A stretch of 64,000 bases of DNA from Methanosalsum natronophilum (GTDB lineage Archaea > Halobacteriota > Methanosarcinia > Methanosarcinales > Methanosarcinaceae), in assembly GCF_024808815.1 (NCBI RefSeq), contig NZ_JANUCS010000008.1:1-64000 (forward strand). Direction: 5' to 3'. The translations under genes were made by a program, and so were the position numbers. Position 1 is the first letter of the stretch. Each line of letters begins with the position of its first letter. Shown in pieces: positions 24,850-28,544 of this stretch. A model generated the notes under the pieces. The model had not been told where the DNA came from. It saw only the letters and a program-made list of their open reading frames with translations, and searched no databases.

Positions 24850-25947
24850 ATGGTAAACTCTCTTTCACATTTTGGTGTAGGCTTTTTAATAGCAGCAGTC
24901 TTAGGATTCAAAGGCTGGGAAAGGATATGTCTTGGACTATTAGCAGTGCTTCCAGATTTAGATTTCATTCCAAATTTCCTTTTTTTTGCAATCGAAGATA
25001 TGTTTTCCTATGAAGTTAGAACACAACTGTTTTATATTATGGTGCATCGTGAATTTTTTCATTCACTTCTTTTTATTTTAATAGTTACAGTAATTTTGTG
25101 GCTTTGGAAAAAAAACAACAAATTTACTATAGCAGGGTTTTTTGTTTTGTTAAGCCACTTTTTTTTGGATTATGCAACTTCATGGAAGATGAGACCTATG
25201 TACCCTTTTGTTGAGGAAGCTTCAACGTTAGGCTCAATTGATTTCTTTGATCCAATAGTTACTATTATCTCTCTAATTCCAGTAGCTATACTTCTTTTAG
25301 ATTATAGATTTGGTAGATTAAAAGAGATTAATTACAGAAGCAAGCTCAATAGGTTAACACTCACTTTTAAAGCTAACGAGAAACAGATTTATCAAGTTTT
25401 GTTTATTGTACTTCTTGTATGGTGTGCTATAACACCCTTTACTAAACTGCTACTGGTATCAGACGTAGCTGCACAAGAAAACACTGAACTAGTCTATCAA
25501 GATACTTATCCGATAGCTTTTGGCAAATTTTTGACAGCTTATTCGTATAATGAAAGCCACTATAAGGTTATGGAGATATCATACTGGTCAGGCATTGAGC
25601 AAAGTGTTCATGTTCCTAAAATAGCAAATAAAGGAACTTCATCAAGTTCCGATGCAATGATGTCATACGTTAAAGCTTCATATGACTTATATTCAACAAC
25701 ACCTGGTCAGCAAATTGATTTTCCCGTGTTTTCTGTTTATAAGGAAAATGATTCTATCGAAGTAACTATTAGAGATGCCAGAAGTGAATTTGTTCTGTTC
25801 TGGACGTATTTTGTAGTTGAGTATAAGTTCGTGTTTGATAGTGGAAATCCAGGCTGTAATTATACTGCTTATTATACAGACCAACAGGGAGAAACTAGAG
25901 AGGTTCCTAACAACTGGTTTCTTGAGAATGATAAATGCTTAGAATAA
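24850..25947 (+). CDS. YdjM-type membrane metal-dependent hydrolase
   Basis: 365 residues. The N-terminal part carries the motif set of the LexA-regulated YdjM/DUF457 family: SHFGVGF, AVLPDLDF, MVHREFFHSL and LSHFFLDYATSWKMRPMYP, with conserved His and Asp on membrane helices (four to six hydrophobic segments to about residue 200). The last 160 residues are hydrophilic and probably outside the membrane. Hydrolase activity is inferred from the metal-ligand pattern; the substrate (possibly a lipid) is unknown. No operon partner. Confidence 0.82.
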   Translation: MVNSLSHFGVGFLIAAVLGFKGWERICLGLLAVLPDLDFIPNFLFFAIEDMFSYEVRTQLFYIMVHREFFHSLLFILIVTVILWLWKKNNKFTIAGFFVLLSHFFLDYATSWKMRPMYPFVEEASTLGSIDFFDPIVTIISLIPVAILLLDYRFGRLKEINYRSKLNRLTLTFKANEKQIYQVLFIVLLVWCAITPFTKLLLVSDVAAQENTELVYQDTYPIAFGKFLTAYSYNESHYKVMEISYWSGIEQSVHVPKIANKGTSSSSDAMMSYVKASYDLYSTTPGQQIDFPVFSVYKENDSIEVTIRDARSEFVLFWTYFVVEYKFVFDSGNPGCNYTAYYTDQQGETREVPNNWFLENDKCLE

Positions 25948-26000: not shown

Positions 26001-26213
26001 TTATCCACCTGAAACAATTTTAAGTATAGAAACATTACCAGAGTCAACGTTAGCATCAAGTGCTACTGCTTGTCCTTCATGTAGGACTAGAACAGTCTCT
26101 GGATTAATCTCAAGATCATTTAAAAGCTGTTCATATGTACAATCTTCATGAACATCCAAATGCTTTTTAGTTTCATCCCCCATCATTAGTTTTAGAGTTA
26201 ATCTTTTACTCAA
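26001..26213 (-). CDS. Ubiquitin-like MoaD/ThiS/SAMP-type protein
   Basis: 70 residues with a beta-grasp pattern (RLTLKLMMGDETKKHLDVHEDCTYEQLLNDLEINPETVLVLHEGQAVALDANVDSGNVSILKIVSGG). It ends in GG, as sulfur carriers and archaeal protein modifiers do. It starts with TTG, and the stop codon of the upstream acidic protein overlaps this start (TTGA), so translation is coupled. The tail could be adenylated and thiocarboxylated by an E1-like enzyme for tRNA thiolation, molybdopterin synthesis, or protein conjugation. None of these partners is adjacent. Confidence 0.85.
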   Translation of the reverse strand: MSKRLTLKLMMGDETKKHLDVHEDCTYEQLLNDLEINPETVLVLHEGQAVALDANVDSGNVSILKIVSGG

Positions 26214-26362
26214 TCGAAATCTTCACCACCTTCTTCTTCATAATCACTGAGCCCTTCCCCATCAATCAAATCATCAAGGTTTTCATGTATTAATTTTTCT
26301 TCAAAATTTTCATCTTTTTTAATTCCTTTGCGCTCAGCTTCTCTTTTATGGAATTTTGACAT
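26210..26362 (-). CDS. Small acidic protein, 50 aa, overlapping the ubiquitin-like gene
   Basis: ORF on the minus strand beginning at the ATG at 26362, with GAGGTGAAC nine bases upstream, a strong site. The product starts with a basic segment MSKFHKREAERKGIKKDENF and ends very acidic (DDLIDGEGLSDYEEEGGEDFD). Its TGA shares three bases with the TTG start of the next gene. No family was recognised. The basic head with acidic tail suggests a binding protein, or perhaps a substrate or partner of the ubiquitin-like protein. Predicted from the ribosome-binding site, the overlap and the composition. Confidence 0.75.
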   Translation of the reverse strand: MSKFHKREAERKGIKKDENFEEKLIHENLDDLIDGEGLSDYEEEGGEDFD

Positions 26363-26816: not shown

Positions 26817-27407
26817 TTGTCAAAATCATTTTATGGATACATAAGAGATGCGTGGAAAAACCCCGAGAATAGCTATGTAAAAGATCTTAGATGGGAACGC
26901 TTGCAAAAATGGAGAAAAGAAGGTTCAGTTGTCAGGATTGAAAGACCCACCAGAATTGATCGTGCAAGATCTCTTGGATATAAAGCTAAGCAAGGTATTG
27001 TAATGGCACGTACAAAGGTACGACGTGGTGGTAGAAGAAAATCTAGATTTGTTGGTGGTAGACGTTCTCAACGTATGGGGGTCAACAGTATCACTGGTAG
27101 GAAGAGTATCCAAAGAATTGCAGAAGAACGTGCTAGCAGAAAATATCCAAATATGGAAGTGCTTAATTCATATTGGGTAGCTGAAGATGGAAAATCTAAA
27201 TGGTATGAAGTCATTTTAGTAGATCCTTCTCACCCTGTAATTAAAAGTGATAAGTCTTTGAACTGGCTATGCAACAATAAAAATAAAGGTAGGGCATACC
27301 GTGGTAAGACTAGCGCTGGTAAAAAGGGCAGAGGGATAAGAACCCGCGGCAAAGGTACTGAAAAAACCAGGCCAAGCTTAAGGTCTAACACATGTCGAGT
27401 CCAGTGA
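26817..27407 (+). CDS. rpl15e: 50S ribosomal protein L15e
   Basis: 196-residue large-subunit protein, clear L15e: [14 protein letters not shown] at the start, [18 protein letters not shown], and the basic tail [28 protein letters not shown]. It starts with TTG, supported by CAGGTGA eight bases upstream and the usual MSKSFYGY beginning. First gene of the superoperon; its 3' end overlaps the next gene by 16 bp. Confidence 0.97.
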
Positions 27408-27853
27408 TTCAGTACATAACTCTTCGAGCTAACGTACATTCAACTGAAGTTGAAGAGAGGGTCAAACAAGCCCTCAATTTTTTTTTGGATGGGATGGGAA
27501 TAGATGATAAGAAAGGTATCATTGAAACCACTAAAGCAGAAGGACATTTTGGTAACCCTATTAGCATATGTTCAGTGAATGTTAAAAAAAGAAGCAAGTG
27601 TAAAAATTTCATTCCCTTCTTAAGGCACAATCTTGAAACAAAATATCTTGAAGAACTAAGGAATGAAATCAAGTACAGATTAGATGAAGGCCAAACGTTG
27701 CACTTGAGGTTTGATAAGCAAGCTGCATTCACCGGTCAAGCTAAACCATCTTCATCTTCAGATGCGATAATTGTAAAAATAAAGATCACAACATTCCCTA
27801 AAAATTGGGAGTTTGCTAGAGAGTTCCTGGAGGATATGTGTGGTGAAGTCTAA
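27392..27853 (+). CDS. RNA-binding protein, COG1325 (exosome-associated type)
   Basis: 153 residues, the archaeal RNA-binding protein that lies next to rpl15e in many genomes ([14 protein letters not shown] at the start, GHFGNPI and [11 protein letters not shown] in the middle). Related in fold to the PF01877 family; an RNA-binding role in rRNA or tRNA processing is inferred from operon context. It overlaps rpl15e by 16 bp and the RNase P gene by 11 bp, so all are translationally coupled. Confidence 0.88.
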
Positions 27854-28544
27854 GTTTTGTGACTGTAATGTACACCCACTACCAGAAGGAAAAGATACGG
27901 TAGCTAGAATGATTAATTTTGCTAAGCATTTGGGCTATCAACGTATAATTATCACATTACATTCAGATTCAGAGTTATCGCCTTCCGATATCCCCACTGA
28001 TGTTAAAGGAATAGAAGTTTATAGAGGAATAGAAGTAAAAACACAATCTCCCTCGAAATTGAATGGATTGATTGGGAAGTACAGAAAAGCAGCTGATTTT
28101 TTATCAGTCCATGGTGGGAATGAAAAAATAAATAGGTTAGCGGTTGAAAATCCTTATGTTGATTGTCTTATGCATCCTTTAACTGAAAAAAATAGTGGCT
28201 TAAATCACGTATTAGCAAAAGAAGCAGTACGTAATAATGTGGCTATAGAATTTAATATGGATTTGATCTTAAAAAGTAGAGGTGGGCGAAGAGTTTATGC
28301 CTTTTCTCATTTTAAAACTAACTTAATGCTTGCACGTAAGTATGGTGTGGCAACAATTGTGGCAAGTAACTCTAGATCTATTTTCCATATGAGAGCTCCA
28401 AGAGAAATGATTGCAATTTCTCAATTGTTCGGTATGAATGAAAGGGAAGCAAACGATTCAATCTCAACCATTCCTGGTGAGATACTCGATAAAAATTGCA
28501 TTAATAATGGTGCTGTATTTGAAGGTGTGAAAATAATTGAATGA
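27843..28544 (+). CDS. rnp3: RNase P protein component 3 (Rpp30)
   Basis: 233 residues with the TIM-barrel-like PHP fold of Rpp30: [68 protein letters not shown], and AFSHFKTNLMLARKYGV. It is a protein subunit of RNase P and binds the specificity/catalytic RNA together with Pop5. GGAGGAT precedes two in-frame GTG codons at 27840 and 27843; the second has better spacing and gives MKSKFCDCN. Next gene: rnp2. Confidence 0.93.
   Translation: MKSKFCDCNVHPLPEGKDTVARMINFAKHLGYQRIIITLHSDSELSPSDIPTDVKGIEVYRGIEVKTQSPSKLNGLIGKYRKAADFLSVHGGNEKINRLAVENPYVDCLMHPLTEKNSGLNHVLAKEAVRNNVAIEFNMDLILKSRGGRRVYAFSHFKTNLMLARKYGVATIVASNSRSIFHMRAPREMIAISQLFGMNEREANDSISTIPGEILDKNCINNGAVFEGVKIIE

Follow-up and report, generated by a model that had tools for sequence, protein, structure and literature searches.

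A small basic-helix protein encoded in one operon with SAMP2 in Methanosarcinia and related archaea, and its possible role as a SAMP2 companion

A gene for a small protein, hereafter the partner, lies immediately upstream of the gene for the ubiquitin-like protein SAMP2, on the same strand, in all 117 genomes of the phylum with listed matches to both genes; these genomes share ancestry and are not independent, and genomes with weaker SAMP2 matches stand outside the joined tables behind this count. The recurrence of the pair, seen in 92 distinct protein pairs, is far beyond chance and is no local accident, and the fixed pair proposed in an earlier note on this DNA is conserved in relatives. The partner is tentatively interpreted as a dedicated companion or adaptor that binds SAMP2 non-covalently, with tRNA thiolation or sampylation as the probable process.

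Organization of the locus

The window, the whole 64,000-nucleotide stretch of the Methanosalsum natronophilum genome that was analysed, carries the pair as two overlapping genes on the minus strand (Table 1). The stop of the small gene and the TTG start of samp2 had been described as sharing bases, and the letters TTGA (26213-26210) are indeed common to both open reading frames. A Shine-Dalgarno-like sequence with the core GGTGA is situated 9 nt upstream of the samp2 TTG, inside the partner gene.

Table 1. Features of the partner-samp2 locus in the window
Feature	Position	Strand	Description
samp2 gene	26001..26213	-	70 aa, TTG start, SGG end; matches PF21965 and PDB 4hrs, 2l32
samp2 product	26001..26213	-	Ubiquitin-like beta-grasp sulfur carrier or modifier, SAMP2 family
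Partner gene	26210..26362	-	50 aa, ATG start, TGA stop; without a Pfam or NCBIfam family
TTGA overlap	26210..26213	-	4 nt; partner stop and samp2 start; translational coupling, predicted from sequence
GGTGGTGA	26223..26230	-	Putative samp2 Shine-Dalgarno sequence within the partner coding tail, where it forms Gly-Gly-Glu codons

The pair is flanked by a gene for a YdjM-type membrane protein (24850-25947), convergent with samp2, and by a divergent cluster encoding ribosomal protein L15e, an RNA-binding domain protein and RNase P p30 (26817-28544), after which proteasome- and exosome-like genes follow. At Methanothrix and Methanococcoides-type loci, a conserved regulator, HTH-like by eye, replaces the YdjM-type gene in the position convergent with samp2.

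The SAMP2 protein and its C-terminal end

The ubiquitin-like protein of the window matches the Pfam SAMP2 family PF21965 (3e-15, 56.8 bits), passing the cut-off of 27, and its relatives of solved structure are Haloferax SAMP2 (PDB 4hrs, 2l32). The match to the NCBIfam SAMP2 model NF041919 (2.4e-14, 53.6 bits) does not pass the equivalog cut-off of 70, and the protein is therefore filed as a member of the Pfam SAMP2 family rather than as a demonstrated equivalent, in function, of the Haloferax protein. The C-terminal Gly-Gly expected for activation by an E1 enzyme is present in the window protein (SGG).

The end of SAMP2 is changed in several lineages that keep the pair: SQG or SKG in Methanolobus and a relative; SRG, SKG or SQG in genus g14; SRG in an ANME-2 genus; and AGA in genus g2. 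In Methanothrix relatives other than genus g36, every SAMP2 read ends in SAG or SSG, never in GG, and the remainder of the protein is conserved (loci of Methanothrix and relatives L097, L098, L100-L102, L106, L108, L112, L136, L139, L147, L148, L069, L072 and L073). The last Gly is retained in nearly all SAMP2 lineages with an altered GG, which would still allow E1 activation, as with Atg8 and Ufm1, single-Gly modifiers that are activated by E1. Purifying selection is still detected by dN/dS on Methanolobus SAMP2 with its SQG end. At other loci, residues extend beyond the GG, in Methanoperedens (L028, L129, L130, L137, L158) and ANME-2 (L119, L123, L124), giving the ends GGRR, GGNR, GGNRYL, GGWSEVH, GGRLEVDPILPG and GGCGPVSSG, as if these were precursors requiring trimming. 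SAMP2-like proteins encoded without a partner in family f11 (L173, L180) have SVG ends. In Methanosarcina mazei, a "70 aa MoaD protein" is discussed among the small open reading frames responding to nitrogen limitation (PMC11456600); it may be the product of this samp2 gene under another name, its length being equal to that of Methanosarcina SAMP2.

The genome of M. natronophilum also encodes the enzymes that SAMP2 would be expected to work with. A single ThiF-family E1 of 249 aa (PF00899) matches the NCBIfam UbaA, MoeB and ThiF models at 1e-57 to 1e-81 (UbaA 3.6e-70), none of them above its own cut-off, and an NcsA homologue of 304 aa is present (5.4e-93). A second ubiquitin-like protein scores above the cut-offs of the SAMP1 and archaeal MoaD models and is encoded adjacent to moeA, so that SAMP2, which had no match to the MoaD and TIGR01687 models, need not serve molybdopterin synthesis. 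The earlier note had named, as a refuting outcome, that the ubiquitin-like protein act only in molybdopterin or thiamine synthesis; the SAMP1/MoaD protein next to moeA is the better candidate for the molybdopterin task, and the window SAMP2 is probably not a molybdopterin carrier, an identity as MoaD being rejected for this genome on the same ground. Identity as the thiamine protein ThiS is disfavoured, since archaeal ThiS is not linked to thiamine genes in two comparative studies (PMC2948915, PMC1779556).

The partner protein

The partner, searched alone or with its relatives, had no match above cut-off in Pfam, NCBIfam or PDB, in agreement with the earlier description of the small protein as not recognised. 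Scattered matches under the cut-offs to Pfam DUF3886 (0.065), DarP (0.04) and TAF8_C (0.24) were rejected as a basis for naming a family, as was a supposed likeness to SERF/4F5, for which the search gave no match. The basic head and acidic tail first noticed in the window protein hold for the family, with a mean net charge of +3.1 in the N-terminal half and -1.9 in the C-terminal half. The conserved region is the basic, helical head and not the acidic tail, and the window protein is more acidic and longer than is usual in the family (50 aa vs a typical 41-46). Three residues, K12, G13 and K16, show no variation among 26 diverse members, and R7, E10, R11, K23 and L24 show almost none. AlphaFold2 predicts a single helix over residues 6-34, with a pLDDT of about 91 at residues 11-30, followed by a low-confidence acidic tail that is predicted to be disordered. 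The amphipathicity of the helix is weak (mean z 0.7).

Purifying selection clearly acts on both proteins, with lineage medians of dN/dS of 0.08-0.23 for the partner and 0.16-0.25 for SAMP2. The medians (partner/SAMP2) are 0.20/0.25 in Methanolobus, 0.22/0.16 in Methanosarcina, 0.23/0.21 in an ANME-3-like genus, 0.08/0.20 in ANME-2 and 0.12/0.16 in Methanoperedens. A haloarchaeal protein of 57-65 aa (MPDTKRGRERQGRKKxEQLExxL...), found in 51 of 98 haloarchaeal genomes, shows a borderline likeness to the partner core, and no SAMP2 gene is nearby in the loci read (L193-L198, L067, L068).

Conservation of the pair

Single-sequence searches of 60 relatives gave matches to SAMP2 in 46 genomes and to the partner in 48. 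A profile of the partner (A1) matched 204 of the 238 genomes that were searched in the class, including 147 of the 151 best genomes, and the gene is single-copy per genome among the matches listed. In the phylum, the partner was detected in 136 of 393 genomes; the adjacency given at the outset comes from running a SAMP2 profile on the same 393 genomes and joining its listed matches to the partner table. The pair reaches across Methanosarcinia, the Methanocella-like family f15, the Archaeoglobaceae-like family f10, and families f30, f33 and f12, and all seven Archaeoglobaceae-like genomes without a partner match carry, by eye, a diverged partner (MRxFxW...). It is intact where the flanking genes vary among moaA, a LarB-like gene, Dph2 and L15e. 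In Methanoperedens relatives, the gene right after samp2 is, by eye, moaA (L018, L028) or LarB-like (L014).

Both genes are absent together from family f3 and, for the most part, from genus g10. The partner occurs without SAMP2 in five of seven sampled Methanohalophilus genomes, in Methanothrix genus g36 and in family f22, which indicates that it has some role independent of SAMP2. In the three SAMP2-lacking Methanohalophilus genomes that were read, no samp2 remnant was seen, and the two other sampled genomes retain the pair. SAMP2 occurs without the partner in families f11, f18 and f8.

The closed genome G242, of family f12, encodes both proteins as one 104-aa open reading frame, with the partner at the N-terminus, then SAMP2, and a free end VVSGG. 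A second copy of this fusion was not found within the class of G242, and the sister family f22 carries the partner alone, whereas f18 carries SAMP2 alone. The arrangement, in a single genome, is suggestive of a joint function, and an N-terminal partner with a free GG is more readily understood as a binding subunit than as an acceptor. A structure prediction of the fusion used alignment rows for SAMP2 only, and the placement of the helix relative to SAMP2 in it is no evidence.

Translational coupling and the GGE motif

Among the 92 distinct pairs, the two genes overlap by exactly 4 nt in 48, the spacing lies between -20 and +13 nt in 91, and SAMP2 starts with a non-ATG codon (GTG or TTG) in 86, as is expected of coupled genes. 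The coupling claimed for the window thus appears to be the rule for the family, and the two proteins are inferred to be co-translated in the cell.

The Shine-Dalgarno-like sequence also bears on the Gly-Gly-Glu or Gly-Gly-Gly motif towards the C-terminus of the partner. The motif is borne by 35 distinct partners of the overlapping type and is encoded in each of them by GGC or GGT followed by GGT. The second Gly codon is thus GGT in 35 of 35, as against a GGT share of about 26% elsewhere (about 28% for the remaining Gly codons of partners, 25% for those of SAMP2). The GGE motif is missing in many relatives, substituted in ANME-2 and Methanoperedens, and gone where the samp2 start shifts. These patterns indicate that it is mostly a samp2 Shine-Dalgarno or translation-initiation sequence and not a GG of the kind found in Pup or ubiquitin-like proteins.

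Proposed function and alternatives

In the proposed mechanism, an ancient operon of two genes would supply the partner and SAMP2 from the same message in a coupled ratio. A UbaA-like E1 would activate SAMP2 at its C-terminal glycine, and SAMP2 would hand sulfur to NcsA for 2-thiolation of the wobble uridine in tRNA; it may additionally be attached to protein lysines. The partner would act as a dedicated non-covalent adaptor between SAMP2 and its clients, its basic helical head binding either RNA or an acidic surface, tRNA or NcsA for instance, and its acidic half binding protein, and would help to position SAMP2 on the client. Contact of the partner with SAMP2, NcsA or RNA is presumed in this scheme, as is the process itself, tRNA thiolation or sampylation; since nearly all genomes have NcsA and E1, whether they carry SAMP2 or lack it, co-occurrence does not tie the partner to thiolation.

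The companion role is argued for by the coupled operon, the constant adjacency, the G242 fusion, the basic helix and the joint absence in f3 and g10. It is weakened by the persistence of the partner without SAMP2, by the occurrence of SAMP2 without the partner, by the restriction of the fusion to one genome and by the weak amphipathicity of the helix. It is put slightly ahead of the strongest alternative, itself a substantial possibility, in which the partner would be a small housekeeping protein in its own right, associated perhaps with RNA or the ribosome through its basic helix, and samp2 would be co-expressed with it in the absence of any contact. Such independence would agree with the single-copy presence of the partner in 147 of the 151 good genomes from the class, with its outlasting of SAMP2 in three lineages and with a core conserved equally to or more than SAMP2 in several lineages; however, the genes are never apart in genomes with listed matches to both, a natural fusion is known, and the pair holds while its neighbours vary (moaA, LarB-like, Dph2, L15e).

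An improbable alternative makes the partner a conjugation substrate of SAMP2 at K12, K16 and K23, with the pair as an autoregulatory or signalling unit. The first two of these lysines are invariant and the third nearly so in the 26 diverse members, and NcsA, a co-worker of SAMP2, is itself sampylated in Haloferax (PMC4048286). Against this, the fusion joins the partner to the N-terminus of SAMP2 rather than its C-terminus, the partner is retained without SAMP2, and the GG is lost in several paired lineages (AGA, SQG, SRG, SKG, SAG, SSG). Because of the last two points, the partner is not merely a conjugation substrate and not only a carrier, and the earlier suggestion of a modifier and its carrier or substrate is not supported for a protein that survives SAMP2 loss and is N-terminal in a fusion whose GG end is free.

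Very little likelihood is left for the small reading frame as a cis-acting leader that solely brings ribosomes to the weak TTG or GTG start of samp2. The 4-nt overlaps, the embedded Shine-Dalgarno sequence and the non-ATG starts would all suit such a leader, but amino-acid conservation and purifying selection extend over the entire helix, the partner is kept in genomes lacking SAMP2, and the fusion in G242 is in frame; a leader-only upstream reading frame was rejected on the protein conservation and the partner-only lineages. A toxin-antitoxin or other selfish pair, which small, overlapping genes with oppositely charged termini might recall, is negligible given single-copy, apparently vertical conservation in several families, the loss of either gene singly and the known metabolic or modifier function of SAMP2.

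If the companion role holds, the partner could be the first accessory protein known to be dedicated to a ubiquitin-like system in archaea: a small basic helix that would bind SAMP2 non-covalently and confer client or RNA specificity, a task for which these archaea have no known E2 or E3. The system would be ancestral to Archaeoglobi, Methanosarcinia and Methanocellia; so broad a claim is less likely than not. How SAMP specificity is achieved without E2 or E3 enzymes is an open question in Haloferax (PMC4048286), for which the coupled partner is a concrete candidate, genetically testable in Methanosarcina. Natural experiments that separate the sulfur-carrier, modifier and non-covalent roles are offered by lineages whose SAMP2 ends in SQG, SKG or SAG and by lineages devoid of SAMP2.

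The earlier note's judgement that the pair had not been described agrees with its absence from the main texts of two comparative studies: Iyer 2006 (PMC1779556) reports no conserved neighbourhood for archaeal ThiS-type genes, and Makarova and Koonin 2010 (PMC2948915) list neighbours other than the partner. The conserved pair qualifies the former statement, and short unannotated open reading frames may explain the difference.

Comparison with known systems

The eukaryotic Urm1-Uba4-Ncs6/Ncs2 system is a functional analogue, consisting of a ubiquitin-like protein, an E1 and a PP-loop thiolase (PMC5372739). The TtuA-TtuB relay (PDB 5GHA, 5ZTB) likewise joins a ubiquitin-like sulfur carrier to a PP-loop tRNA thiolase, and the fold of the window SAMP2 matches TtuB. 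Pup resembles the partner in being small, helical and acidic with a GGE close to the C-terminus, but GGE or GGQ are the last residues of Pup whereas the window partner ends in GGEDFD. A Pup-like tag was rejected because the motif is non-terminal, is lost in relatives and has its second Gly codon fixed as GGT under the apparent Shine-Dalgarno constraint. The second eukaryotic subunit, Ncs2, is not known to be related to the 50-aa partner, and TtuB is not known to have a coupled basic helical partner.

In Haloferax, thiolated tRNA-Lys(UUU) requires SAMP2, UbaA and NcsA, and NcsA binds SAMP2 (PMC4048286; reviewed in PMC5372739). The Haloferax studies cited here describe no small coupled partner gene for SAMP2. 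The H. volcanii protein (HVO_0202; PDB 2L32, 4HRS; PF21965) is like the window SAMP2 in family, length, beta-grasp fold and C-terminal GG, and homologues of its UbaA-like E1 and NcsA are also encoded in the genome from which the window comes.
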